Assembly: GCA_937868765.1 (NCBI GenBank)
Contig: CALMNL010000004.1
Coordinates: forward strand, 1,624,749-1,688,748
From: an uncultured Desulfatitalea sp.
GTDB lineage: Bacteria > Desulfobacterota > Desulfobacteria > Desulfobacterales > Desulfosarcinaceae
Length of the DNA: 64,000 bases
Direction of reading: 5' to 3'
The position numbers and the translations under genes were made by a program. A model generated the notes under the pieces. The model was given only the letters and a program-made list of their open reading frames with translations. It did no database searches and had not been told where the DNA came from. This document shows, piece by piece, positions 49,746-63,827 of the stretch. Every line of letters starts with the position of its first letter. The first letter of the stretch is position 1.

Positions 49746-51674
49746 TCAAGGCGCGCCCGCGATGGTGTCGATAAAGCAGCTGCCGCCGCTGTCGGGGGGA
49801 TTGTACGGCGTCGGTTCAAAGGGCTCTTCATCCGTTAGCTTGTAGACGCTGGCGCCGGCCAGCCCCTCAGCCAGGAAGGCGTATTCATTGACCGAGAATA
49901 CCTTGAGCGCGGTGCCGTTGGTGCCGGTCGCCCATGCGGTCACGGGTGTGGGGCTGGCGGGGGTCGAGACATCCAGCGTCACCAGGCCGTTCGCGCCGTC
50001 GGCCACACGGAGGTAGCCGCCCGACAGGCTGACCCCCATGGCGGTGCCGCCGGTGTCGTAGCTGCCCGCGTTGGCCGGGGAGGCCGGGTGGGAAATGTTG
50101 ATGATCCGAACGCCGTCGGACCCATCGGCGACATAGGCGTAATCACCGGAAATCACAAGATCATAAGCCGTGCCCGCGGTGTCGAGGAATCCGATCCGGG
50201 TGGGGTTGCCCTTGTCGGCGACATCGATGATCTGCAGGCCGCTGTCGCCGTCGGCGACGTAGGCGACGTCGGCCGAGACAAATACCGCGCAGGCCGTTCC
50301 GTCGGTGTCATAGGCGCCGGCCGACTGGGGATTGTTTTTGGCCGCTACATTGATGATGCGCAGCCCGTCGGCGCCATCGGCCACGTAGGCATAGTCGCCG
50401 GAAACAAAGACATCCCGGGCCGTGTCCGGCGTATCCAGGGCGCCGACAATGGCCGGAGCGGTTTTGTCGGCCACATCGACGATCTGCAGACCGCTGGTGC
50501 CGTCGGCCACATAGGCGTAGTCGCCGGCAACGAAGACGGCGCTGGCCTGACCCGGCGTGGCGACGAACCCTTTATAGACGAAATTGCCCAGATTGAACGC
50601 ATCCAGGATGCGCAGCCCTTCCGTCCCGTCGCCTGCGCCGGCGGTGCCGTCCACGATATACAAGTAGTAATCTTCATCCACAAAGAGATCTGCCGCATCC
50701 GCCGGCGGATCGTACTGCGCGGTGCTGGACCCGAGTTTCTGCAGCCCCTGGGAAAAGTCACAGACCCACAGATCGCCGCCGCTGGCCGTCACCGCGTAGG
50801 CCCCGCCGGTGCCGGCCAGGGTCTGCACCAGCGTGGGGTCGGCCGGATCGGCGACATTTACTTCCCCCACGCCATGGTTGGCGTCGGCCACGTAGGCCGT
50901 GCCGCCGGTCACGAAAATCCCGAGGAAATTGACGCCTGCGGGCGCCAATGTGCCCAGGACATCCGGATTGGTTCGATCGGTGATATCCACGATGGTCATT
51001 CCGCCGGCCGAAGCGGTGACATAGGCGTGGTTACCGGAAACCGAAACATCCCAGGCGCCGGGGATGGTGGTGACGCTCCGCCAGACAGGGGCCTGGGGAA
51101 CGGAAACGTCGATGAGGTGCAGCCCGCTGACCTGGTCGGCCACGGCAGCCACTGTGCCGGAGACGAAGAGGTTGATCGAATAGACCAGCAGGCCCGGCAG
51201 GGTGATGGCGGCGGCTTCGGAGGGAGCGGCCGGGCTGCTCACATCGACCACCATGAAACGGTTGAGGCCGACGGTGTAGGCATATTGCCCCGCGACAAAG
51301 ACGCTCTCGATGCCCCTGCCGTCCGACGGTGTAAAGGGGTTGGCGAACACCGCCGGCGCGGCTGGATTGGAGACATCGACGATTTGCAATCCATTGGTGC
51401 CCATGGCGGCATAGACACGCTCGGCCGCATAGAAGATGCCCAGAATTTCACCGCCCATCTCCTTGCTGCCGACAAATGCCAGATTGCTGTCCAGAATGGT
51501 GAGCATGTTGCCGCGGGCGAGAAATACATGCCCTGCCGCCGCATCCACGGCCACCGCGCGGGCCGCGGCCTGGGGCCAACGGTCGCCGGATTGAATCTCG
51601 GGCGCGGCCTGAACGATGGCATGTCCCAGCAAGGTGAGGAGCACCGCCGCGATCAGGCATGCAGAATTTCTCAT
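49746..51674 (-). CDS. Secreted LVIVD-repeat beta-propeller protein
   Basis: 642 residues from ATG 51674 behind AAAGGAGATG. Signal peptide (about 1-23). The body consists of roughly eleven to twelve LVIVD repeats of about 42-46 residues, best seen as VFVAGDYAYVADGTSGLQIV and VFVSGDYAYVADGADGLRII. The C-terminus is GGSCFIDTIAGAP, close to the CFIATAA-type motif that precedes C-terminal sorting segments in deltaproteobacterial exported proteins, but the hydrophobic tail is missing. Probably a cell-surface or secreted protein; function unknown. Confidence 0.85.
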   Translation of the reverse strand: MRNSACLIAAVLLTLLGHAIVQAAPEIQSGDRWPQAAARAVAVDAAAGHVFLARGNMLTILDSNLAFVGSKEMGGEILGIFYAAERVYAAMGTNGLQIVDVSNPAAPAVFANPFTPSDGRGIESVFVAGQYAYTVGLNRFMVVDVSSPAAPSEAAAITLPGLLVYSINLFVSGTVAAVADQVSGLHLIDVSVPQAPVWRSVTTIPGAWDVSVSGNHAYVTASAGGMTIVDITDRTNPDVLGTLAPAGVNFLGIFVTGGTAYVADANHGVGEVNVADPADPTLVQTLAGTGGAYAVTASGGDLWVCDFSQGLQKLGSSTAQYDPPADAADLFVDEDYYLYIVDGTAGAGDGTEGLRILDAFNLGNFVYKGFVATPGQASAVFVAGDYAYVADGTSGLQIVDVADKTAPAIVGALDTPDTARDVFVSGDYAYVADGADGLRIINVAAKNNPQSAGAYDTDGTACAVFVSADVAYVADGDSGLQIIDVADKGNPTRIGFLDTAGTAYDLVISGDYAYVADGSDGVRIINISHPASPANAGSYDTGGTAMGVSLSGGYLRVADGANGLVTLDVSTPASPTPVTAWATGTNGTALKVFSVNEYAFLAEGLAGASVYKLTDEEPFEPTPYNPPDSGGSCFIDTIAGAP

Positions 51675-52024
51675 GATGCATCTCCTTTTGAAGAAGGTGA
51701 AGCGAATCGTATCCATCGGGGGGCATGCCGCGCTCGGCGCAGACGGCGCGTCAACACGCGCGTTGCATCGATGCTGGCAAATAGACGGGCCGCCCCCGGG
51801 CGTTTTACTGCCAGGCGCGTTTCAACCCGCTCGAATTGTAAGGGCACCGGCGCAATTTAGCCGATATGCAGCGCGATGTCCATGGCTAAATGTCACAAAA
51901 ATCTTGTCTGTAACGGCCATCTCGTGTAATAGATTCAGCCAGCACCAGGTGGCATTGCGCCGCAGGGTGCCGATATCTGCATCGCCCCTTTGCTTGACGA
52001 AAATCATTGTTGCGGAAGGCCTGA
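51675..52024. other. Divergent spacer without a gene
   Basis: 350 bp between the LVIVD protein and the TRAP genes. It must contain both promoters, but I see no box pair strong enough to name, and no terminator or repeat. Confidence 0.4.
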
Positions 52025-53002: not shown

Positions 53003-54046
53003 ATGAGATTGCCATCCGGTGCGGTCCGGTTCATCGGCTGTTTATGCGTGTGTTTCGGACTGATCGCCGCGACCGCGACCCTTCCGGCCGCCAAAACCAC
53101 GATCAAGGTGGCCGTGGTCACCCCCGAAGGCAGCGCCTGGGTCCAGGTGCTCGAAGAGATGGTGGCGGAGGTCCGGGCGCAGACCCAGGGCGAATTGGAC
53201 TTCATCATCTATGCCGGCGGGGTCAGCGGCGATGAGGCCGACGTCCTGCGCAAAATGCAGGCCAACCGCATCCAGGCGGCCGGCCTTTCCGGCGTCGGCC
53301 TGGGGATCATCCTGCCGGAAATCCGGGTGCTCGAATCGCCGCTGCTGTTCAGCGGGGACGAGGCCATCGACACCGTTCGCGAGCAGATGTTCGACACGTT
53401 CGCCGCCGCATTTGAAAAGAAAGGCTTCGTCCTGCTGGGATTTACCGAAGGCGGCTGGGTGTATCTGTTCTCCGCGCGGGACCTCTCGCGAATGGATCAG
53501 ATTCAATCCTGCAAAATGTGGGTCTGGCAAGGGGACCGCATCGCCGAACTGTTCCTGGAGACGTGCGGCGTCCGCACCACCCCGCTGCATGTCGCCGATG
53601 TCAACACCGGTCTGGAAACCGGCATGATCGACAGCTTCTACGCGCCCCCGCTGGCGGCCGTGGCCTTTCAATGGTATGTGCGCGTGCACTATATGCTCGA
53701 TCTTCCCGTTACCAACGCCACGGCGGCGTTTCTCATGAACAAGAGAACCATGGCAGGTCTGCCGGCCGACCACCAGAAAATACTCCAGGCGACGGCGCGC
53801 AAGTACTGCCGGAAGCTGGTGGCGCTGACCCGTCGCGACAACCGCGAAGCGCTGGGGGTCCTGCAGGCCCAGGGCATTCAGCTGGTGACGCCCACGGCGC
53901 AGCTGACGGCGGAGATTCAAAACTACGCCCGCAAGAGCTATGCGAAATGCATTCCCGATATCTATCCCCAAAGCCTCTTCGACCAGGTGGCGGGCATGGC
54001 GATGAAAGCGGGCGCCCCGGCCGATAAGCAGCGCCCCTCAAATTGA
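53003..54046 (+). CDS. dctP: TRAP transporter periplasmic binding protein (DctP family)
   Basis: 347 residues. Signal peptide (cleavage near TLPAAK), then IKVAVVTPEGSAWVQVLEEM, IQAAGLSGVGLGIILPEIRV, and WVWQGDRIAELFLETCGVRT with the usual substrate Arg region changed. It delivers a carboxylate-like solute to DctQM. The presence of TatT places it in the TatP subgroup, some of which bind lipophilic ligands. Confidence 0.88.
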   Translation: MRLPSGAVRFIGCLCVCFGLIAATATLPAAKTTIKVAVVTPEGSAWVQVLEEMVAEVRAQTQGELDFIIYAGGVSGDEADVLRKMQANRIQAAGLSGVGLGIILPEIRVLESPLLFSGDEAIDTVREQMFDTFAAAFEKKGFVLLGFTEGGWVYLFSARDLSRMDQIQSCKMWVWQGDRIAELFLETCGVRTTPLHVADVNTGLETGMIDSFYAPPLAAVAFQWYVRVHYMLDLPVTNATAAFLMNKRTMAGLPADHQKILQATARKYCRKLVALTRRDNREALGVLQAQGIQLVTPTAQLTAEIQNYARKSYAKCIPDIYPQSLFDQVAGMAMKAGAPADKQRPSN

Positions 54047-54050
54047 TGGG

Positions 54051-54545
54051 ATGCCGGTGGGCAATAGCATGCTGAAACGATTGCTGAAGCTCGATCGATG
54101 GCTGGAAAAGGCGGAACGGGCGCTGGCCATAACTTTGTATGGGCTGCTGATTGCCGCGGTGGCCGTGAATGTCTTTGCCCGCAATCTGCTGCACATGGGC
54201 TCACCGTTTCTGCTCCAGGCCGCACCGACACTGGTGCTGTGGCTGGCCCTGGTGGGCGCGACCCTGGGGCTCAAGCACGGGCGCCATATCACCATCGGCG
54301 CGCTGATGCGCTTTCTCTCGCCGCAATGGCGCAAAGCGGCTGTGATCATGACCAGCCTGGCCGCCCTCCTGGTGGCGGCGGCCCTGTGCTATGCCGCGGT
54401 CCTGTTTCTGCAAAACGAACTCATTCTCTTCGGCGCGCTGGGCTGGCGGTCGGTTTGCCTGCCGCTCTTTTTCCTGATGGTCTTTTTTCGCTCTGCGCTG
54501 CGCTGCTGGACGCAGTGGCCGCCGATCTCCCCGGATGCCCGCTGA
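54051..54545 (+). CDS. dctQ: TRAP transporter small membrane subunit (DctQ family)
   Basis: 164 residues (ATG 54069 is an alternative start). Four membrane helices with the DctQ pattern ITLYGLLIAAVAVNVFARNL and LALVGATLGLKHGRHITIGA. It starts 4 bp after dctP and abuts dctM. Confidence 0.87.
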   Translation: MPVGNSMLKRLLKLDRWLEKAERALAITLYGLLIAAVAVNVFARNLLHMGSPFLLQAAPTLVLWLALVGATLGLKHGRHITIGALMRFLSPQWRKAAVIMTSLAALLVAAALCYAAVLFLQNELILFGALGWRSVCLPLFFLMVFFRSALRCWTQWPPISPDAR

Positions 54546-55817
54546 ATGCTGCCGACGATCCTCATATGCGCCATCTTATTGCTGACGCTATTCAATCTGC
54601 CGTTGTTTCTGAGCATCGGCGCGTTGACCATGACCCTGATGCTCGGCGGCGATCCGGATCCCACCGTGCTGCAAGCCATCCCCATCGAGATGAACCGCCT
54701 GGCGACCATGCCCATTTTAGTGGCGCTGCCGCTTTTCACCATGTCCGGCTGCGTTTTGACCGCTTCCCGCATGCCCAACCGGCTGCTGGCCTTCCTCGAT
54801 GCGGTGGCCGGCTGGCTGCCCGGCGGCAGCGCCATCGCGGCCCTGTGCGCCTGCGCCTTCTTCACCGCCCTGACCGGTGCCAGCGGGGTCACCATCATCG
54901 CCATGGGCGCCGTGCTGTACCCCATCCTCAGAGAGCAGCACTACGGCGAACAGTTCAGCCTGGGGCTGCTCACCACGGGCGGCAGTCTCGGGCTGCTCTT
55001 TCCGCCGAGCCTGCCGATCATCCTCTACGGCGTGGTGGCCCAGATCGATATCGCCCGACTCTTCCATGTGACCCTGGCGCCGGGGATCCTGTTGCTGCTG
55101 GTGCTGTGCGCGTATGCTTTTGCCCAGGGACGCAGGCTGAAGAAAAGCGCTGCCCGGCGGTCGAAGATCTCCTGGGAACGGTTCAAAGCGGCCTTGCGCG
55201 CGACGCTATGGGACTGGCTGCTGGTGGCCATCATCCTGGCCGGCGTCTACGGCGGATTCGTCACCATTGCGGAAGTATCGGCCGTGGTTCTGATCTACGT
55301 GGTCGTCGTGGAGTGCTTCGTGCTCAAGGAGATCGACTGGCGCCGCCAGCTTCCCGGCATCGTGGTGGAGAGCGCGGTGCTGACCGGCGCGGTCATCGTC
55401 ATCCTGGGCATGGCCATGGGATTCACGGCCTACCTGGTGGATGCCCAGATTCCGGACAAGGTCATCGCACTGCTCACGGGGCTGACCAGGAACAAATTGC
55501 TCTTCCTGGCAGGGCTGAACCTGATGCTGCTGGGGGTCGGCTGCATCATGGATATCTTTTCGGCCATCGTGATCATGGTGCCGATCATCGCGCCGGTGGC
55601 CCAGAGCTACGGCATCGACCCCTTCCATCTGGGCGCCGTCTTCCTGGTCAACCTGGAGATCGGCTACTCGACCCCGCCGGTGGGCATGAATCTGTTCATC
55701 GCCAGCTTGAAGTTCGACCGGCCGATCACCCTGCTCTACCGGGCCTCGCTGCCCTATCTGGTGCTGTTGATGATCTGCCTGATCATCGTCACTTACCTGC
55801 CGGCCCTGTGGTTTTAG
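54546..55817 (+). CDS. dctM: TRAP transporter large membrane subunit (DctM family)
   Basis: 423 residues, about twelve helices. Family motifs: ALPLFTMSGCVLTASRMPNR, FTALTGASGVTIIAMGAVLY, GGSLGLLFPPSLPIILYG, and near the end GYSTPPVGMNLFIASL. The ATG directly follows the dctQ stop. It is convergent with the next gene, leaving 7 bp. Confidence 0.92.
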   Translation: MLPTILICAILLLTLFNLPLFLSIGALTMTLMLGGDPDPTVLQAIPIEMNRLATMPILVALPLFTMSGCVLTASRMPNRLLAFLDAVAGWLPGGSAIAALCACAFFTALTGASGVTIIAMGAVLYPILREQHYGEQFSLGLLTTGGSLGLLFPPSLPIILYGVVAQIDIARLFHVTLAPGILLLLVLCAYAFAQGRRLKKSAARRSKISWERFKAALRATLWDWLLVAIILAGVYGGFVTIAEVSAVVLIYVVVVECFVLKEIDWRRQLPGIVVESAVLTGAVIVILGMAMGFTAYLVDAQIPDKVIALLTGLTRNKLLFLAGLNLMLLGVGCIMDIFSAIVIMVPIIAPVAQSYGIDPFHLGAVFLVNLEIGYSTPPVGMNLFIASLKFDRPITLLYRASLPYLVLLMICLIIVTYLPALWF

Positions 55818-55824
55818 CCGGCGG

Positions 55825-56322
55825 CTAATGGACGTACATCTGGATGTTCCCGGAAATCTCCATCACGAAGTTCTGCAGGCCGATGGCCCCGAAGCTCAGC
55901 CCCTGGCCGGGCGCGCCGCCCACGCGGATGGCGTCGATGGTCAGATGGTCGATGCGGATGGTCATGTCATCGAGGAGAAAGTTCAGCCCGGTCACCACCG
56001 AACCGTCGATGAGCGATTTGAAATGGCCCGGTTGCACCGAGATCGGCAATCCCCCCGTGGCGATGGAACCATCCATATGCAGGCCGCAGATGCTGAGAAA
56101 AGCCTTCTGATAGGAGGGCGCCATGCCGTCCTCATCCAGATAGTACAAGCTATCCACCGCCATCATCAGCCCGAGGGTTTCGCCGGCCGGGATGAGAAGG
56201 CCGAACCCGCCGTCGATGCCGGCCATGTCAGCGTCGGCCAGGGGCTGCAGTTCCGCCGCGGCCGGACCCGCCGCGGCCGACCAGAGAATCAACACAATCC
56301 AAATCAGACGCAATGGTTTCAT
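55825..56322 (-). CDS. Exported DUF6160-like protein with double-glycine motif (paralogue C)
   Basis: 165 residues. Signal peptide ending near PAAAEL, then LQPLADADMAGIDGGFGLLI: a Leu at -12, Asp -8, Met -7, Ile -4 and Gly-Gly at -2/-1, the spacing of double-glycine leader motifs. The mature part is beta-rich with DGSIATGGLPISVQPGH and MTIRIDHLTIDAIRVGG. It shares the motif and layout with the proteins at 61962 and 63102. Separated from the upstream propeller gene by a strong terminator, so it has its own promoter. Confidence 0.72.
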   Translation of the reverse strand: MKPLRLIWIVLILWSAAAGPAAAELQPLADADMAGIDGGFGLLIPAGETLGLMMAVDSLYYLDEDGMAPSYQKAFLSICGLHMDGSIATGGLPISVQPGHFKSLIDGSVVTGLNFLLDDMTIRIDHLTIDAIRVGGAPGQGLSFGAIGLQNFVMEISGNIQMYVH

Positions 56323-56440
56323 GAAGGCTCCTTCCGTGGGAAATTCCGTGCCGACCCCATTTGGTATCGGCGCTCGGAAGGAAAGCTTTAGGCGGGCGGG
56401 TTCCGCGGGGCGTGCCGGTTCGGCGGGAAGGGCCGGGCAT

Positions 56441-56481
56441 AAAAACGCGCCCGGGGCGATCCTTGCGAATCGCCCCGGGCG
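56441..56481 (-). terminator. Intrinsic terminator after the TolB-like gene
   Basis: A perfect 13-bp stem, CGCCCGGGGCGAT/ATCGCCCCGGGCG (56448-56460 with 56469-56481), 8-nt loop, followed on the minus strand by CGTTTTT (56445-56441 for the T run). Confidence 0.9.
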
Positions 56482-56510
56482 TCTGATCGGCGGTTGTTAT
56501 TTTCGGGCGG

Positions 56511-58055
56511 TTATGGCGTGGTGCCACCGGCGATGTGAACGTCCAGCCGCAGGAATTCGGGGCCGGGCATCTTCAGCACGATCGTCCGGCAGTGGTTTTC
56601 GCCGTCGAAGGTGATGGCCTCGTCTTTCAGCGTGGCATCGAAGAGGGTCTGGCCGGCCGTGCCGTCCACGTAGATGCGCCACTGGTCCCGGGTGCAGCCG
56701 GCATAGACCATGTGGGTCCCCCCGGGGCTGAAGAAGGGAAAGGTGACCGAATCGTGGCGGCTTACGGCGCGTTGGTCCACCACCATGATCATCTCCTTGC
56801 CCTGGATGGCCACATAGGCCAGGCGGCTCCCGTCCGGGCTGAAGACCGGACGCCGCAGCCCGTCGTAACGGGCTTCGTGGGGCCGGCCGTTCTGGACGAC
56901 CAGCCACTTGTCCGCCTGCCGGGCCCGGTAGGCCAGTTGCCTGGAGTCGGGGCTGAAGACCGGCAGGCCGACCGACTCGTACACCGGCTCCATGCGGTCG
57001 TCGACCACCATGCAGGCCTTGTCTTTCAGTTGCGCCATATAGGCCAGGCGGGAACTGTCCGGGCTGAACACGGAGACCCCGAGCTGGTCGAACACCAGTC
57101 CCTTTTTGCCGTCCCGCACCATGTACCAGGCCTTGCCTTTAAAGGCCGCATAGGCCAGGTGCCGGCTGTCGGGGCTGAAGAGCGGCGTGCCCACGCCGTC
57201 GCCGCCCGGCAGCTCCTCACCGTCGCGCAGCGCGACCCAGCCGGTTCCCTCCTTGAGGGCCATGTACGCGAAGTGCGCGGCATCGGGACTGAAGGTCAGC
57301 TGGGCCACCTTTTGAAAAGCGGGGCCGGGGCGGCCGTCGACCACCACCGTTTGACGGTCCCCCTTTTTCAGGGCATAGGCCAGTCGCTTGGCATCGGGGC
57401 TGAAGACGATGCTCTCCACCGTTCCGTCGATTTCCATTGGCTTGCCGTCCACCACCAGGCAGCCGGCCTTGCCGTTCAAGGCGCCATAGGCCAGCCGGGC
57501 GCCGTCCGGGCTGAAGCGGGGGCCGGTGCGGATGTCGATCACATCGAAGGCGGGCTGGGGCGTGCCGTTGACCACCACCGCCTGTTTGCCGGAGATACCG
57601 GCCCGGTAGGCCCAGCGGGCGCCGTCGGGGCTGAAGACCAAGGCGTCGACCCCGTCGAAGAGCGGCTCCGGCTGCAGGTCGATCACGGCCTGGGCTTTTT
57701 TCTGCTCCCGAAAGGCGATGTAGGCCCAATGCAGTTTACCCGGGCCGCTCCCGCCGGCGATCAGCGGGGTGCCTTTGGCCACCCCCGGGCAATAGGGGCC
57801 GCGCTGGTCGTCCAGGGCGGCGAACATGCCCTTGGGATCCTTGGCGGCATAGGCGACATGGGCATTGTCGGCGCTCACTTTCAGCGAAATGGGAAAAAAC
57901 GTTTCGCCGGGCGCGATGCGGCCCAGGGGCCGGGCGTTTTCCGTGAAGGTCGCCGGCGGGGTCGGCGCCGTCGGCGTCCCGGCCGCGGCGGTCGCCGCGA
58001 AGAGGGCGAGAATCAGTATCCAATTGAAGCAGGCCGTGCTTCGCGATGCTGTCAT
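56511..58055 (-). CDS. Exported WD40/TolB-like beta-propeller protein
   Basis: 514 residues. Signal peptide (about 1-25), then about nine repeats of the form FSPDGARLAYGALNGKAGCL, FSPDAKRLAYALKKGDRQTV and FSPDSRQLAYRARQADKWLV. TolB/PD40-type propellers bind partner proteins in the periplasm. It is the last gene of the minus-strand exported-protein operon, 52 bp after the FadL-like gene, and ends at a terminator. Confidence 0.82.
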   Translation of the reverse strand: MTASRSTACFNWILILALFAATAAAGTPTAPTPPATFTENARPLGRIAPGETFFPISLKVSADNAHVAYAAKDPKGMFAALDDQRGPYCPGVAKGTPLIAGGSGPGKLHWAYIAFREQKKAQAVIDLQPEPLFDGVDALVFSPDGARWAYRAGISGKQAVVVNGTPQPAFDVIDIRTGPRFSPDGARLAYGALNGKAGCLVVDGKPMEIDGTVESIVFSPDAKRLAYALKKGDRQTVVVDGRPGPAFQKVAQLTFSPDAAHFAYMALKEGTGWVALRDGEELPGGDGVGTPLFSPDSRHLAYAAFKGKAWYMVRDGKKGLVFDQLGVSVFSPDSSRLAYMAQLKDKACMVVDDRMEPVYESVGLPVFSPDSRQLAYRARQADKWLVVQNGRPHEARYDGLRRPVFSPDGSRLAYVAIQGKEMIMVVDQRAVSRHDSVTFPFFSPGGTHMVYAGCTRDQWRIYVDGTAGQTLFDATLKDEAITFDGENHCRTIVLKMPGPEFLRLDVHIAGGTTP

Positions 58056-58107
58056 GATTGACTCCTTTCGGGGTGTTGCGGGGAAGCGTCCATCGCAAGG
58101 CGAGGTT

Positions 58108-59817
58108 TCAGTCGAAGGGGTTGAGCAGGGACAGGGTATGGTCCAGCATTCCGGTCATGACCTCCCAGGGCATGGTCATCTTGAACGCGCCGATGAATGT
58201 CTCGGTCTTCTGGCTGTAATCCAGGCCCGCATAGGGGTTGTAAACCGGTTTGAACGGGTCGGTGGAGTTGAGCAGGTCGCTGCCGTTGTTGGGCACATAG
58301 ACATCCTTGCCGACCAGGTAGTCGAACCCCAGATCGATCTGGATGTGATTCTTGGTCATGATGCTGAAGCCGGCGGCATAGGAGTGCATGTCCGGCAGGC
58401 AGTACAAGTTGTCGAAGTGCGACATTTCCACCGAAGAGGGTCGCCATTCGTAGCCGGCCAGGAAGGTCAGCCAATTGGTCAACTGGTATTGCAGGCCCAC
58501 GCTCCAGCTCCAGGTGTCTTTGAAATCGCGCTGCAGCACCAGGTTGCGGTTGCCGCCGGTGTAGCCCAGGACCTTGACCAGCTGCAAGAGCTGGATGTCC
58601 TGGTCGAAGACGAAACGGTCTTCCTTGAGCACCGACCAGTTGGCCCAGTGCAGGTCGCCCAGCAGGCTGAGGCGCTCGAAGGGTTTGAGCTTGAGGCCCA
58701 TCTGCACGCGCTGGGGCAGTTCGAATTCCGAGGTGACGGTGCCGGTCTGGTACGGCACGGCATTCATGGGCAAATTGAGCATGCCGGAGACGGTGACCAG
58801 GGTCGGCGAAGATCCCATCCAGTTGATCATCTTCTGGAAGGTTTCGGTGTAGTCGAAGCGGTACTGGCCGGTCATCTGCACCTTGACCGGGCTCTGGTAG
58901 ACGATGCCCGCCGAGAGCCACTTCATGGGGTCCCACAGCAGCCCCACGTTGTAGTTGGGCGAAAAATCGTCGCGCATGTCCATCTGCATGCTGGCCACCT
59001 GATCGTAGGGCCCCACGCCGCCGCCGAACCAGGGGGGCGGCAGGGTCAGCTCCGAAAGTACCGGGATCTCCAGGTCCTTGGTGGCATCGCCGAGCACGCG
59101 GGTCAGCGCGACCAGATCATTGGGCGAACGCATGTCCACCGTGGCGCCCAGGGCGGTCTGGCCGGCCCCCACGGATACGCCCAGGGCCAGCTTGGGGGTC
59201 ACCTGATAGCTCAGCGCCGGGGCCAGGTAGACCAGATGCTGTTCGTAGACGCGCTTGGCGCCGTAGCGCACCGGGTCCATGTCGTCATCGTGCGCGAAGC
59301 CGACGCCGAACGGCACGTAGTTGCCGATGGCATAGCTCCAGCGGGAGTTGGGGGGGCGGTAGGAGAGCCCTAGCGTGGGCGCGATGAGAAAGTCGATGGA
59401 TTCGTTCACGATGGGCACGTACATGTGGCCGCTCGAGTTGGTCCCCTCGGTGCCGGCCAGCGGGTCGTCGTTGTAGCCGCCGAAAAAACCCTCGAAATCC
59501 GGATCGGCGTCATATTGGGAGGTGATCTTGATGACGGGCAGGGCCAGGCCGGCGCCGATCTGCTTGCCTTCGGGCAGCTTGGACAGCCCGGCCGGATTGT
59601 AGTGGATGGACCCGATGCCCGGCGGATCGGCGGTGACCGTGTTGGCCATGGCGATGGCCCGGGCATCGACGGCCATCTGCTCGATGAACGACGCGGAGGC
59701 CGGGGCCGCCGGCCACCAGACCCCCGCCAGGGCCACCACCAGCCAGACGATCCGGGGGGCGCGTCGGGCCAGGCGCAACAGAAGGCGGAAGTCTGTTTGG
59801 GACATCGGTTGCGCCAT
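58108..59817 (-). CDS. FadL/TodX-like outer-membrane channel
   Basis: 569 residues. N-terminal hydrophobic export signal (cleavage near ASASF), then the FadL plug signature AVDARAIAMANTVTADPPGI with IHYNPAGLSKL, and a long beta-barrel with aromatic alternating strands (LGLSYRPPNSRWSYAIGNYV, VGLLWDPMKWLSAGIVYQSP) ending in LLNPFD. FadL channels import hydrophobic compounds. Its start lies 1 bp after the stop of the coiled-coil barrel gene, so they are made together. Confidence 0.87.
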   Translation of the reverse strand: MAQPMSQTDFRLLLRLARRAPRIVWLVVALAGVWWPAAPASASFIEQMAVDARAIAMANTVTADPPGIGSIHYNPAGLSKLPEGKQIGAGLALPVIKITSQYDADPDFEGFFGGYNDDPLAGTEGTNSSGHMYVPIVNESIDFLIAPTLGLSYRPPNSRWSYAIGNYVPFGVGFAHDDDMDPVRYGAKRVYEQHLVYLAPALSYQVTPKLALGVSVGAGQTALGATVDMRSPNDLVALTRVLGDATKDLEIPVLSELTLPPPWFGGGVGPYDQVASMQMDMRDDFSPNYNVGLLWDPMKWLSAGIVYQSPVKVQMTGQYRFDYTETFQKMINWMGSSPTLVTVSGMLNLPMNAVPYQTGTVTSEFELPQRVQMGLKLKPFERLSLLGDLHWANWSVLKEDRFVFDQDIQLLQLVKVLGYTGGNRNLVLQRDFKDTWSWSVGLQYQLTNWLTFLAGYEWRPSSVEMSHFDNLYCLPDMHSYAAGFSIMTKNHIQIDLGFDYLVGKDVYVPNNGSDLLNSTDPFKPVYNPYAGLDYSQKTETFIGAFKMTMPWEVMTGMLDHTLSLLNPFD

Positions 59818-59818
59818 G

Positions 59819-60997
59819 CTAATCGCCGAGATCGAAACGCACCGGGATGCGGAAGGAAACCGTGAAGTCCGGATCGTCGCTGGTCAGCCCGATGCCGACC
59901 TTGACGAAGAGCGAATATTTGGGCGAGAGCCGCCAGCCCGCGCCGATGCTGAAGCTGGAGGTCACCCAGCTGTTGCTGTAGTAGGCGCTGCCGTCGGTGA
60001 AGTCGTATTCGGTCTCCTTGTGATAGGTGTACTGGTAGGAGAAGTTCATCGAGGTCTTATAAGACAGGGCCGAGGCCATGCCCAGGCTGAAGCCGTAGCT
60101 CTCGCCGGGGTCCACTTCGGTGAGCACCAGGCCGCTGGACTGGATCTGATCGACGTCGGTGGTGGGGAAGCCGTAGGTGTAGAACACGCTGCCGAAGGGG
60201 ACCACCGGATCGATGCTCTTGGAAAAGGTCAACCCGCCGGTGGCCGCATAGTAGCCGCTGCCGGTGCTCAGCTCGGTCTCGGGATCGATCTTGTAGGGGC
60301 TGCGGCCGGTGGGAAACGAGCCCTGCAGGAAGACGATCATGGCCGGCCAGTCGCCGCCGCTCTTGAACGGCTGGTACTGCAGGCCGGCGCTGGCATCGCC
60401 CAGATCGGTCACCTCGCGACTGTCGTTGATGCTCCGTTCGTCGAACTTGTAGACGAAGGGCAGGGTGCCGTTGAGGCTCAGGTTGCTGAAGATCCCCTTT
60501 TCCAGGAAGAGGGAGTTGGTCAGGGTGTGGTTGCCGCGCCGCTCCACGGCCAGGCGGTTGCCCTCCGAGTTGCGCAGATCCTCGAGCAGGTCCGCGGAAA
60601 AGTAACTATAATCCAGACTGTATTCGAACCCGAGCTGCTTTTTGGGAATCAGGGTGTATTCCCGGCCCACGGCCGAGAGCACCTCTTTTTCCGTGGCGGT
60701 TTTTTCTTCTTCGGAGATCTTCAAGGCCTTGCGGGCTTCGGACTCTTTTTCCAGGTCCTCCACCTTCTGCTGCAGGGATTTGATCTGCTGGTGGAGCGCA
60801 TCCAGATCGTTGGTTCCCATGCCCGGGCCGGCCGGCGACGCAACGGTGTCGGCGCCGGGCGCCGGGGGCGGCGTGGGGCTCGGGCCGGTGGCGGTGCCGC
60901 TTTCGCTCTGGGCCAGCAGCAGCGGGGGGGCGAAGGACACGGACAGGACCGTGGCGGCGATCAGCAGGCAAGACCGGAGCATCGAGCGGTTCAGCAA
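59819..60997 (-). CDS. Outer-membrane beta-barrel with N-terminal coiled coil (FapF-like arrangement)
   Basis: 392 residues. Signal peptide (about 1-30), a Pro/Gly/Ala linker, a coiled coil at about 63-108 (LDALHQQIKSLQQKVEDLEK) and a barrel from about 115 to the end (FEYSLDYSYFSADLLED, GLTSDDPDFTVSFRIPVRF). The order coiled coil then barrel is the design of FapF, the pore that secretes Pseudomonas Fap amyloid; general similarity to MetA/phenol-degradation-type barrels is also possible. It follows a C39 peptidase gene by 14 bp, as fapF lies in an operon with the C39 gene fapD. Confidence 0.75.
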   Translation of the reverse strand: MLNRSMLRSCLLIAATVLSVSFAPPLLLAQSESGTATGPSPTPPPAPGADTVASPAGPGMGTNDLDALHQQIKSLQQKVEDLEKESEARKALKISEEEKTATEKEVLSAVGREYTLIPKKQLGFEYSLDYSYFSADLLEDLRNSEGNRLAVERRGNHTLTNSLFLEKGIFSNLSLNGTLPFVYKFDERSINDSREVTDLGDASAGLQYQPFKSGGDWPAMIVFLQGSFPTGRSPYKIDPETELSTGSGYYAATGGLTFSKSIDPVVPFGSVFYTYGFPTTDVDQIQSSGLVLTEVDPGESYGFSLGMASALSYKTSMNFSYQYTYHKETEYDFTDGSAYYSNSWVTSSFSIGAGWRLSPKYSLFVKVGIGLTSDDPDFTVSFRIPVRFDLGD

Positions 60998-61011
60998 GAA
61001 TCTTCTCCTCT

Positions 61012-61815
61012 CTAGGGATTTTCAGTCGGTGGTTCGGGGGCCTGGATCACGCGCACGCTGTCGAAGCGCTTGCTCTGGGCCACGTCGTCGCGCGGCATGC
61101 TTTTATTCAGTTCCCATTCCCGTTCGCCCGGCCAGGGCGGGCCGTGGGAAAAGAGGGTATCCCGGGCCGTATCCTCGTCGATGAAGCGCAGGTCTTCTTC
61201 CTTCAGGCGCAAGGCATTCAGAACGGCGCCGCCGTTCTTGGGCGAGACCATGAAGAGCGAATTGAGGTACCAGTGCTTTTCGAACTCGGCCAGGGTGTAG
61301 CTGCTGTTGCCCTGGAACGGATCGGCCACCAGCACATGGCCATGGGCGATGCCCTTGAACACCACGAAATGGCGGTAGTTGAAAACGGTCACCGGCACGA
61401 TGCACGGCCGGTCGAGGGTCTTCAGGTCGTCCAGGGTGGCCTTGTAGCCGGCGCCCTGATAGCCCAGGGCTTCGACGAAGCGTTTCATGTCGAGCAGGGA
61501 AAAGGCCCGGCGCTGGGCGATGGCCGCCGCGTCGCCATATTTCAGCAGCCCGGCGATCACCTGCTTTTCGGTGAGTTCTTCGCCGATGTAGTAGTTCAGC
61601 AGGGTGGCCAGGGCCGCCGACCCGCAGCTGTAGTCGAAATTCTGTTTGATCACGTGGTCGTCTTTGAGCTGGGAGGCGGGCGTCACCGTGGCGTAGATTT
61701 TCTGGGCGCTGCCGGGCACCGGCGCCACCGCCATCTCGGTGGGCGGCGTGTCGGCCTGGTGGAAAAAACCGCCCAGCACGGCTACGCCGATGAAGAAGAA
61801 GAGGACAATGTGCAC
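61012..61815 (-). CDS. Stand-alone membrane-anchored C39 peptidase
   Basis: 267 residues from GTG 61815 behind GGAGG. A single N-terminal hydrophobic segment (residues 2-18) targets it to the periplasm. The full C39 active site is present: Gln58 and Cys64 in KQNFDYSCGSAALATLLNYY, His149 in YRHFVVFKG, and Asp165 in VADPFQGN. C39 enzymes cut after double-glycine motifs. No ABC-transporter part is attached, as in FapD. The candidate substrates are the neighbouring proteins with such a motif. Confidence 0.88.
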   Translation of the reverse strand: MHIVLFFFIGVAVLGGFFHQADTPPTEMAVAPVPGSAQKIYATVTPASQLKDDHVIKQNFDYSCGSAALATLLNYYIGEELTEKQVIAGLLKYGDAAAIAQRRAFSLLDMKRFVEALGYQGAGYKATLDDLKTLDRPCIVPVTVFNYRHFVVFKGIAHGHVLVADPFQGNSSYTLAEFEKHWYLNSLFMVSPKNGGAVLNALRLKEEDLRFIDEDTARDTLFSHGPPWPGEREWELNKSMPRDDVAQSKRFDSVRVIQAPEPPTENP

Positions 61816-61961
61816 CCGGGGGCCTCCGTCGCCGTTTTCAATTTGTGATCCGCCAGCGTGGTCTGGCCCATCCTGCCATACGAAACGGCGGGCCGCCAAC
61901 ACTTTTCTGCATGCATCGCCATCATCGCCATCATCGTAATCATCGTAATCCTGGTGGGGGG

Positions 61962-62843
61962 TCAGGGGATGAACCGCACGGTCAGGCGGTGCACCTGGAT
62001 GTCGTCGATGGCCATGGGCCCGAAATCGGTGCCGCCCCACTGCAGGGATGCCACCCGCAGGCTGCCTTGCATGGGCAGTTTCAGGGTCACGGCCGCCAGG
62101 CCGTCCTCCCCGTGGCCCACGTCGAAGGTGGCCGGGTTACCTTCGACCATGGCCCCGACCTGAAACAGGCCGGTCATCTGCCAGGTGCCCGGGTCGGCCG
62201 GGTCGCCGTCGTCGTGCAGGCCGAAGTGGATGCCGTTGGCGGCCAGGCTGTCGTTCAGGTCGTTATAGCTCAGTTTAAACGTATCGATGGAGAGGCGCGT
62301 GCCGTACTCCCAGTCGATGCCGCCACTTTCATGTGCACCCACCATCCAGTAGAACGACGGCCGGTGGATGACGCCGATATCCAGCGTGCCCAGATCCTGG
62401 CCGCAGAAGCGCAGGGTCTCGGCGTGCAGCGCGGCCTCCTGGAACCAGTCCAGGGCCTCGAGCACCACCCTCGCCTGGCCATAGGCCGGCGAGGCCGGAT
62501 CGTCGATGGCCCCCACGTCCAGGGTCAGCGGCGTGATCAGGCCGTCGCCGTTCACGTCCCGGTCACCGGCGGCGAAGAAGGCCGGCAGCGAAGCGCCGTT
62601 GGTGAGGGCCAGGTCTTCCAGGGTCAGGGCGTTGCCCGTATCGCTGTCGATGTAGCTGAACGAACCCGTGTGCATGAAGACCGACACCTCGTCGAGGGCG
62701 ATGCTCAAGCCGCCGGTGCCGCTGACGGCCGCCAGTTCGGCGTTGTCCAGCGGCTGCAGGTCGGCCGGGCAGAGGCCGGGCCACAACAGCCAGAGCAGGG
62801 CGCTTCCAAGCCGGATGAGGATATGAGCGTTCAGCAGTTTCAT
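61962..62843 (-). CDS. Exported DUF6160-like protein with double-glycine-like motif (paralogue B)
   Basis: 293 residues. Signal peptide (cleavage near CPADL) followed by LQPLDNAELAAVSGTGGLSI: Leu -12, Glu -8, Leu -7, Val -4, Gly -2, Thr -1. The mature part is acidic and beta-rich, with NGDGLITPLTLDVGAIDDPA and, near the end, FGPMAIDDIQVHRLTVRF, which parallels the end of paralogue C. It lies 146 bp upstream of the C39 gene on the same strand. Confidence 0.75.
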   Translation of the reverse strand: MKLLNAHILIRLGSALLWLLWPGLCPADLQPLDNAELAAVSGTGGLSIALDEVSVFMHTGSFSYIDSDTGNALTLEDLALTNGASLPAFFAAGDRDVNGDGLITPLTLDVGAIDDPASPAYGQARVVLEALDWFQEAALHAETLRFCGQDLGTLDIGVIHRPSFYWMVGAHESGGIDWEYGTRLSIDTFKLSYNDLNDSLAANGIHFGLHDDGDPADPGTWQMTGLFQVGAMVEGNPATFDVGHGEDGLAAVTLKLPMQGSLRVASLQWGGTDFGPMAIDDIQVHRLTVRFIP

Positions 62844-63020
62844 GCAGTGTCCCGAAGGGCCGCTCTTTTCGATAGAATCCTCCGGCCAGCGTGGCATTAC
62901 GGGGCTCACGCATCGCTGTCTGGCATGCGATGCGCGCCCGCTATGCGTCCGCACCCGGAGCGGATCTTCGCTTTTGAATTGGGTACAGCTTCGAAGCCTG
63001 AAAACTATCAGAAGCGAACT

Positions 63021-63052
63021 CCGGGGGCCGCGTGCAACCTTATGGCCCCCGG
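63021..63052 (-). terminator. Hairpin after paralogue A
   Basis: CCGGGGGCC (63021-63029) pairs with GGCCCCCGG (63044-63052), loop 14 nt. It lies about 50 bp past the stop of the minus-strand gene at 63102. No T tract, so termination strength is uncertain. The remainder of the 62844-63101 spacer has no gene. Confidence 0.45.
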
Positions 63053-63101
63053 ATTTCACTCTCAACAATTCATCGCAACATACAACTTATCCAGTTTACA
63101 A

Positions 63102-63827
63102 TCAGTGCGGTGCGATTTCAACAACGCCGTCCAGAACACCCATGGTCATGTTGCCGATGGAAATCCGGCCGTAGCTGTTGCTCAAGGGCATTCCGGTGCC
63201 CCCGCCGTTGAGCGCGCCGGCAGCGGTGATCGTAACGTCAAAGGTCAGCGCGGTCTGGTTGACTTCCATCGTGGGCAGGCCGATTCGCACGCCGGCCATT
63301 CTTGCCGCCGCATTTCCGGTATTGTTCACCGCGCCAGCGGTCAGAACTGCGAGGGTGCCGACATCGATGGTCAGCGCTTTGGCTTCGAAATGATCGTTAA
63401 TGCCATCCTCTCCTGCGGTGAGCTCGGTGGGATCGACAATCCCATCGTCATTTGCATCGGTCCAAATCTGAGCATCGACGTTGTTGTAATTAAACAACGG
63501 AGTACCGGAACCGTTATCCCAAACGCCTTGAACGGCGCGGTTGGGGCTTTCGGGCAGACCATCGGCATCCAGGCTGGTGATGGCGTTGATGTTGACCATC
63601 ATGTAGAGATTGCTGATATTCACCGAACCATCAGTTCCGTCGGTGCCGCCGACGTCCGTGTAGCGGATGTATTCAATATTCTGATAGATGATCGCGTCGT
63701 CGATGGCGATGCTCACGCCCGCCTGGCCGGTGATCTGGTCCATGTTGGCGTCGTTCATCGGCTGAAGGGCAAAGGCGTTCAAGGGGAGCAACATCAATAC
63801 GGCCAATACGATAACAAATCTCTTCAT
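63102..63827 (-). CDS. Exported DUF6160-like protein with double-glycine-like motif (paralogue A)
   Basis: 241 residues from ATG 63827 behind GGAGGATCG. Signal peptide (cleavage near NAFAL), then LQPMNDANMDQITGQAGVSI: Met -12, Asn -8, Met -7, Ile -4, Gly -2, Gln -1. The mature region is Asn/Asp/Gly/Thr-rich (DVGGTDGTDGSVNISNLYMM, TDANDDGIVDPTELTAGEDG) with low Lys and no Cys, a composition seen in secreted fibre-forming proteins. It ends ISIGNMTMGVLDGVVEIAPH. Confidence 0.78.
   Translation of the reverse strand: MKRFVIVLAVLMLLPLNAFALQPMNDANMDQITGQAGVSIAIDDAIIYQNIEYIRYTDVGGTDGTDGSVNISNLYMMVNINAITSLDADGLPESPNRAVQGVWDNGSGTPLFNYNNVDAQIWTDANDDGIVDPTELTAGEDGINDHFEAKALTIDVGTLAVLTAGAVNNTGNAAARMAGVRIGLPTMEVNQTALTFDVTITAAGALNGGGTGMPLSNSYGRISIGNMTMGVLDGVVEIAPH

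Follow-up and report, generated by a model that had tools for sequence, protein, structure and literature searches.

What does a periplasmic C39 peptidase cut when its gene stands beside those of a barrel protein and several Sec-exported proteins? The question is raised by a gene cluster in a 64,000-nucleotide stretch (the window) of an uncultured Desulfatitalea sp. (contig CALMNL010000004.1, positions 1,624,749 to 1,688,748). The cluster encodes three exported proteins of Pfam family DUF6160 (DUF6160-A, -B and -C), a stand-alone C39 peptidase, a coiled-coil barrel protein, a FadL-like channel and a propeller protein. An earlier note, made from the sequence of the window alone, had suggested that the locus may be an undescribed variant of the Fap amyloid system. 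That assignment was given up: no match to the Fap subunits FapB, FapC or FapE was found among the seven proteins in Pfam or NCBIfam at E ≤ 1. Because the best NCBIfam models were those of FilA, FilB, FilC and FilD (NF050077-NF050080, a “putative pilus system” of Acinetobacter), profile matching instead places the locus as Fil-type, a relative of the Fil surface-fibre machinery.

The reading that we hold to be probable is that of a Fil-type export module, in which substrates bearing a Sec signal peptide and a 16-residue C39 leader would be cut by FilB, leave through FilC and end on the surface. The N-terminus of a substrate would be bipartite, the signal peptide being followed by a C39 recognition leader of about 16 residues with hydrophobic residues at P15, P12, P7 and P4, often an acidic residue at P8, Gly or Ala at P2 and usually Gln at P1. 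Following export by Sec, periplasmic FilB would dock this leader as a short helix and cut at or beside the Gly-Gln pair; the trimmed substrate would exit via FilC, a FapF-like pore, and remain on the cell surface, probably as a fibre or coat. FilD and the propeller would be accessory. The route from Sec through the C39 enzyme to the barrel, as the earlier note had drawn it, still appears to be the best reading. A surface fibre is plausible, since published work on Acinetobacter sp. Tol 5 names FilA as the subunit of the Fil pilus (PMC11784438, PMC3498257).

The leader motif lay directly behind the Sec signal peptide and had the spacing of C39 leaders (P15, P12, P8, P7, P4, and P2). Among about 160 aligned leaders, P15 was Leu or Met in 83%, P12 Met, Leu, Ile or Val in 96%, P8 Glu or Asp in 56%, P7 Leu or Met in 98%, P4 Val or Ile in 90%, P3 Thr or Ser in 78%, P2 Gly or Ala in 99%, and P1 Gln in 73%. 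The three window motifs had been described as double-glycine leaders. The hydrophobic P12, P7 and P4 and the small P2 of such leaders were indeed present across the approximately 160 proteins, but their small P1 residue (Gly, Ala or Ser) was not: in the 146 gapless rows of the 168-row alignment P1 was Gln in 107, Ala in 6, Ser in 5, and Gly in 4, and the window leaders have Q, T and G. The final pairs GQ, GT and GG of DUF6160-A, -B and -C include one true double glycine only, that of DUF6160-C. The spacing was therefore retained from the earlier description, while a strict double-glycine leader was rejected on the composition of P1; the final pair is mostly Gly/Ala-Gln.

In the LahT crystal complex, P4, P7 and P12 occupy a hydrophobic groove within a two-turn helix and the pocket tightens near the cut (PMC6363468). 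The conserved positions of the leader are those bound by the C39 domain of LahT, so that, P1 excepted, the leader fits C39 recognition. The predicted cut is placed to within one residue and may lie after the Gln (the C39 register) or directly before it, which would place Gly/Ala at P1. The AlphaFold model of DUF6160-B contained a short helix at residues 34-39, within the leader (mean confidence of block 31-40, 64). In the accessible part of the mainly open-access literature, no paper was recognised that connects a DUF6160 leader with FilB or any C39 enzyme.

The complete Gln-Cys-His-Asp site that had been proposed for the stand-alone C39 peptidase was borne out. Residues Q58, C64, H149 and D165 were invariant in 13 aligned relatives, and a seven-sequence profile matched the LahT peptidase (PDB 6mpz) at E 7.4e-12. 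The start at 61815 was chosen for its hydrophobic N-terminus; a longer frame extends to 62040. A C39 profile scan of genome contigs showed a relative in at least 571 of 590 stretches, of which the best 80 loci, as the closest relatives, were taken further; the four catalytic residues were kept in all 80 FilB relatives. In one FilB (G036, contig C44; L044 562-2082), the peptidase domain is followed by a long tandem insert rich in Gly and Asn (GNGYGNGNGYGN type).

Among the 80 loci, a motif protein was present in 72, FilC in 72, FilD in 70, and the propeller in 20. The motif profile found 161 proteins across the 72 loci, which makes the motif more than chance. FilB had a motif protein upstream in 65 loci and FilC no more than 500 bases behind it in 71, and the order A-B-C-D was kept in 56. 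Each of the 28 gammaproteobacterial loci contained exactly one motif protein and the other 52 contained from 0 to 7. The propeller occurred in 20 of the 52 non-gammaproteobacterial loci versus none of the 28 gammaproteobacterial loci and is an optional neighbour. The FadL-like channel, which had been listed with the propeller as an extra part, corresponds by profile to FilD and would thus be a Fil component. No FilD match was found inside the 10 kb stretch around the FilB-FilC pair of G291, the only part of that genome searched for FilD. By eye, this pair is flanked by pilus-assembly-like genes, PilM/N/O-like on one side and PilT/U-like ATPases on the other (L227 669-9031).

Strong FilB matches and DUF6160 fell largely in the same genomes, many of which are drafts. 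In the phylum of the window (148 genomes), DUF6160 was matched in 11 genomes (E ≤ 1e-3) and strong FilB (E < 1e-50) in eight, all among those 11; strong FilC (E < 1e-40) was found in the same eight. In the class to which G148 (from Pseudomonas carbonaria) belongs, six of 274 genomes had DUF6160, and the same six had strong FilB. At a looser E ≤ 1e-3 the FilB model matched 19 of the 148 and 44 of the 274 genomes, and the FilB threshold was placed post hoc at score gaps (4.3e-52 to 5.5e-39; 1.4e-62 to 8.0e-38). Altogether (422 genomes), 14 of 14 strong-FilB genomes contained DUF6160 and 14 of 17 DUF6160-bearing genomes contained strong FilB (Fisher's test, p 1.3e-23, kinship ignored). Whether DUF6160 proteins usually occur without a C39 gene had been named as a check on the proposal; the opposite was found.

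A profile of the leader only (A5, 37 rows) was run on 43 chosen genomes. Six of the 61 extracted proteins (L010, L025, L028, L036, L173, and L175) did not fit the motif pattern and were excluded from the profile; L173 and L175 stem from places that the profile later matched. At E ≤ 1e-3, it matched all 14 strong-FilB genomes, all three DUF6160-only genomes and one (G054) of the 26 others. These matches are partly circular, since 10 of the 14 and 2 of the 3 genomes supplied profile rows; G001, G002, G030, G130, and G032 supplied none. Weaker matches in four of the 26 others (E 0.0026-0.04) were limited to the signal-peptide part. One weak DUF6160 match (G000, contig C9; E 0.019) was dropped because the motif was missing and the protein appeared by eye to be a periplasmic binding protein.

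Eight weaker C39 enzymes were found in the phylum sample. Seven were FapD-like and only that of G054 was nearer FilB than FapD. None of the seven genomes with FapD-like enzymes had a DUF6160 match, nor had the three of them also tested with the leader profile a leader match. In G054 (L229 2203-6480), a leader protein lies just upstream of the FilB-leaning C39, which is followed by a FapF-leaning barrel; from this combination the locus may be an intermediate between Fil and Fap. Elsewhere, a second cluster in G148 (contig C42; L142 6703-11896) contained three to four leader-bearing proteins, one of which has a reading frame open over about 880 residues, and no FilB was recognised in that cluster. 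Matches of similar sizes were likewise clustered in G149, G150, and G153. In G134, which has no FilB match, an exported protein with a degenerate-looking leader-like stretch adjoins an intact leader protein (L148 742-1476).

Leader proteins were not confined to FilB loci. Seventeen were encoded on 12 contigs of G291 and 20 on nine contigs of G404, with a single FilB match in each genome; matches that did not extend beyond profile position 33 were left out of this reading. Across these 37 leaders (random baseline 0.39 bits, sd 0.11), information was 2.6 bits at P15, 3.6 at P12, 2.9 at P10, 2.8 at both P8 and P7, 3.0 at P4, 3.3 at P2, and 4.7 at P1 (Gln in 35). Beyond P1 it dropped to 1.3 bits at P1' (Ala or Gly in 29 of 37) and to 0.25-1.1 bits from P2' to P20'. 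Conservation that stops so sharply at P1 is as would be expected of a removed pro-sequence. The end of the signal peptide was likewise conserved (Pro at P22, Gln or His at P18), and Ala at P17 in 36 of the 37 fits a signal-peptidase site that would leave a 16-residue pro-leader.

At E ≤ 1e-3, BLAST sorted the cores of the 37 proteins into 20 clusters, of which the largest has nine members; weaker homology would escape this clustering. Leader matches with E ≥ 1e-3 were omitted from it, and one G404 protein with an in-frame TAG was thereby lost. Among ten leader proteins (eight from G291 and G404, one from G363, and one from G054), Pfam DUF6160 was matched in nine, within the first 56 residues in seven; none of the ten matched NCBIfam at E ≤ 0.1. 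In the order of G404 (nine genomes), the six genomes with FilB had 21, 17, 16, 14, 10, and 5 leader matches and the remaining three, without FilB, had none (p 0.012); four of the six supplied no profile rows, and one of the negative genomes is just 1.3 Mb. The same tag on many dissimilar proteins encoded in trans in some gammaproteobacteria, coming and going with one peptidase, behaves like a sorting signal. We lean slightly towards a broader proposal, in which the Sec signal peptide and the 16-residue “GQ leader” would serve Gram-negative bacteria as a general N-terminal sorting signal. A single FilB-FilC pair would mature and export up to about 20 dissimilar proteins encoded chromosome-wide, and Fil fibres would be one use only. 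PEP-CTERM/exosortase is a C-terminal sorting system, and the GQ leader may be likened to an N-terminal counterpart of it.

In the window itself, the whole cluster lies on the minus strand and is transcribed in the order DUF6160-A, DUF6160-B, C39, coiled-coil barrel, FadL-like channel, propeller, DUF6160-C (Table 1). The barrel gene begins 14 bp past the C39 stop, as had been noted, and its protein matched the FapF crystal chains at E 1.5e-17. All three leader-motif proteins first seen are real, and a fourth, whose leader ends in GT, lies just outside the window. The genome contained four DUF6160 matches at E ≤ 1e-3, every one inside this cluster. The FilA match of DUF6160-A was weak and spanned residues 6-189. 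No FilE or FilF match was found for the seven proteins in NCBIfam at E ≤ 1, the existence of such models there not having been checked.

Table 1. Genes and leaders of the Fil-type locus, in window coordinates.
Feature	Position	Strand	Matches and remarks
DUF6160-A, FilA-like exported protein (predicted substrate), 241 aa	63102..63827	minus	PF19657 E 2.5e-13; FilA NF050077 E 2.4e-9, below cut-off
Leader of DUF6160-A	63723..63767	minus	residues 21-35, final pair GQ
DUF6160-B, exported protein (predicted substrate), 293 aa, predicted all-beta	61962..62843	minus	PF19657 E 1.3e-9; AlphaFold mean pLDDT 87.8
Leader of DUF6160-B	62715..62759	minus	residues 29-43, final pair GT; predicted helix at residues 34-39
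FilB-like C39 peptidase, hydrophobic N-terminus, 267 aa	61012..61815	minus	PF03412 E 7.4e-19; FilB NF050078 E 1.1e-57; FapD NF058616 E 6e-33, both below cut-off
FilC-like coiled coil and FapF-type barrel, 392 aa	59819..60997	minus	FilC NF050079 E 2.7e-63; FapF NF058560 E 2.7e-25, both below cut-off
FilD-like FadL-family outer-membrane channel, 569 aa	58108..59817	minus	PF03349 E 1.8e-51; FilD NF050080 E 6.5e-97, below cut-off
PD40 propeller protein, 514 aa, optional neighbour	56511..58055	minus	PF07676 E 1.7e-16; TmcD_fam E 1.9e-32, below cut-off
DUF6160-C, exported protein (predicted substrate), 165 aa	55825..56322	minus	PF19657 E 2.7e-5, below curated cut-off
Leader of DUF6160-C	56206..56250	minus	residues 25-39, final pair GG
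Fourth leader-bearing DUF6160 protein	L005 782-1441 (window-equivalent 64033-64692)	minus	upstream of the other three, just beyond the window

The DUF6160-B model gave no match to PDB folds at E ≤ 0.001 (best E 0.17), and the predicted structure of DUF6160-A was poor (pLDDT 56) and was left uninterpreted. Asn plus Gln amounted to 5-12%. An amyloid is not supported, as nothing observed points that way. Two neighbouring regions were viewed by eye. On the minus strand, 49746-51716 encodes an exported, repeat-rich protein of 656 residues, with repeats that we take to be of the LVIVD type. On the plus strand and convergent with the Fil cluster, 53003-55817 resembles the gene set of a TRAP transporter, with its solute-binding protein and its small and large membrane proteins.

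Several observations weigh against the export module. The co-occurrence counts are uncorrected for the kinship of the genomes. Three genomes (G032, G069, and G134) hold leader-bearing DUF6160 proteins and no FilB match; Pfam showed no C39 in G032 and other C39 matches in G069 and G134. No counted motif protein lies upstream of FilB in 15 of the 80 loci and FilC is missing from eight, some at contig edges; several of these eight, and of the eight without any motif protein, are broken by contig ends. All FilA, FilB, FilC, and FilD profile scores are under the curated NCBIfam cut-offs (FilB cut-off, 475 bits). Finally, the pocket of known C39 enzymes tightens at the cut, yet P1 is mostly Gln. This departure from known C39 sites, together with the persistence of leaders in the three genomes without FilB, would suit a leader that is retained as a docking or chaperone-binding signal, with FilB binding it or cutting elsewhere (e.g., in the barrel linker) and no trimming at Gly-Gln. 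A precedent is the FapF linker, proposed as one possible FapD target in Fap (PMC5557850). Such a retained leader is nonetheless unlikely, given that the FilB catalytic residues are kept throughout the relatives and that conservation ends at P1 as it would in a removed pro-sequence.

The same three genomes would also suit a view of DUF6160 as an ordinary duplicated family, linked to FilB by operon hitchhiking and with an N-terminus kept by descent and not as a signal. Neighbouring DUF6160 copies in many non-gammaproteobacterial loci agree with it, as does the chance that BLAST clusters hide distant homology of the cores. We judge it highly improbable, because the leader proteins of G291 and G404, most of them dissimilar in their cores, are spread over 12 and 9 contigs at a distance from the one FilB and are missing from the three genomes of the same order that are without FilB. 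Least credence is given to a diverged Fap amyloid system. The barrel does match the FapF crystal and the C39 does score with FapD, and the mixed locus of G054 indicates that the Fil and Fap systems are related. However, FilB, FilC, and FilD score far above FapD and FapF, no Fap subunit model was matched, and the FapD-like C39s of the phylum sample sit in genomes without a DUF6160 match. The Fil-type export module, with its leader cut at or beside the Gly-Gln pair, is the reading carried forward.

The opening question has a precedent in Fap, where it was unclear what the periplasmic C39 enzyme acts on and no canonical C39 site was seen (PMC5557850); here a candidate C39 cleavage signal sits on the substrates. 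That signal follows the enzyme through two lineages and breaks off sharply where the cut is predicted, which makes the question directly testable. DUF6160, which Pfam lists without a known function, thereby gains a possible role, and substrates are predicted far from the export genes. A tag shared by otherwise dissimilar proteins, in bacteria owning the same enzyme, suggests an overlooked protein-sorting route, which would lead to the Gram-negative surface and be partly missed by annotation, as the lack of NCBIfam matches for the ten leader proteins illustrates.

Compared with the Fil system, the locus contains homologues of FilA, FilB, FilC, and FilD in the same order. The FilA-like proteins of G160 (not Acinetobacter FilA itself) match the FilA model nearly full-length and bear the leader. 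The differences are three to four substrates here versus one FilA, and the propeller. The long curved fibres on triacylglycerol-grown cells of Acinetobacter sp. Tol 5 were assigned by deduction to Fil fimbriae, and Edman degradation had identified the FilA band (PMC3498257). A biofilm of A. baumannii SDF showed raised FilC and FilF (PMC8792954), and pellicle showed raised FilF (PMC3203104).

With Fap the locus shares a Sec-exported C39, a FapF-type barrel, and a “PTG” stretch in the barrel, as in FapF (PMC5557850). Its C39 and barrel are nearer FilB and FilC, however, and its substrates carry a C39-like leader, a feature that Fap proteins are stated not to have (PMC5557850). The catalytic Cys of FapD is required for FapC secretion (PMC5557850), and a survey described the FapD and FapF models as unspecific and suggested two larger families (PMC3792158). 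The C39 domains of PCAT/AMS transporters (LahT, 6mpz) share the P12, P7, P4, and P2 spacing of the leader and the catalytic Gln, Cys, His, and Asp. In contrast to these, the C39 here is stand-alone with a hydrophobic N-terminus, the leader stands behind a Sec signal peptide with mostly Gln at P1, and the proposed exit is an outer-membrane barrel, not an ABC transporter.

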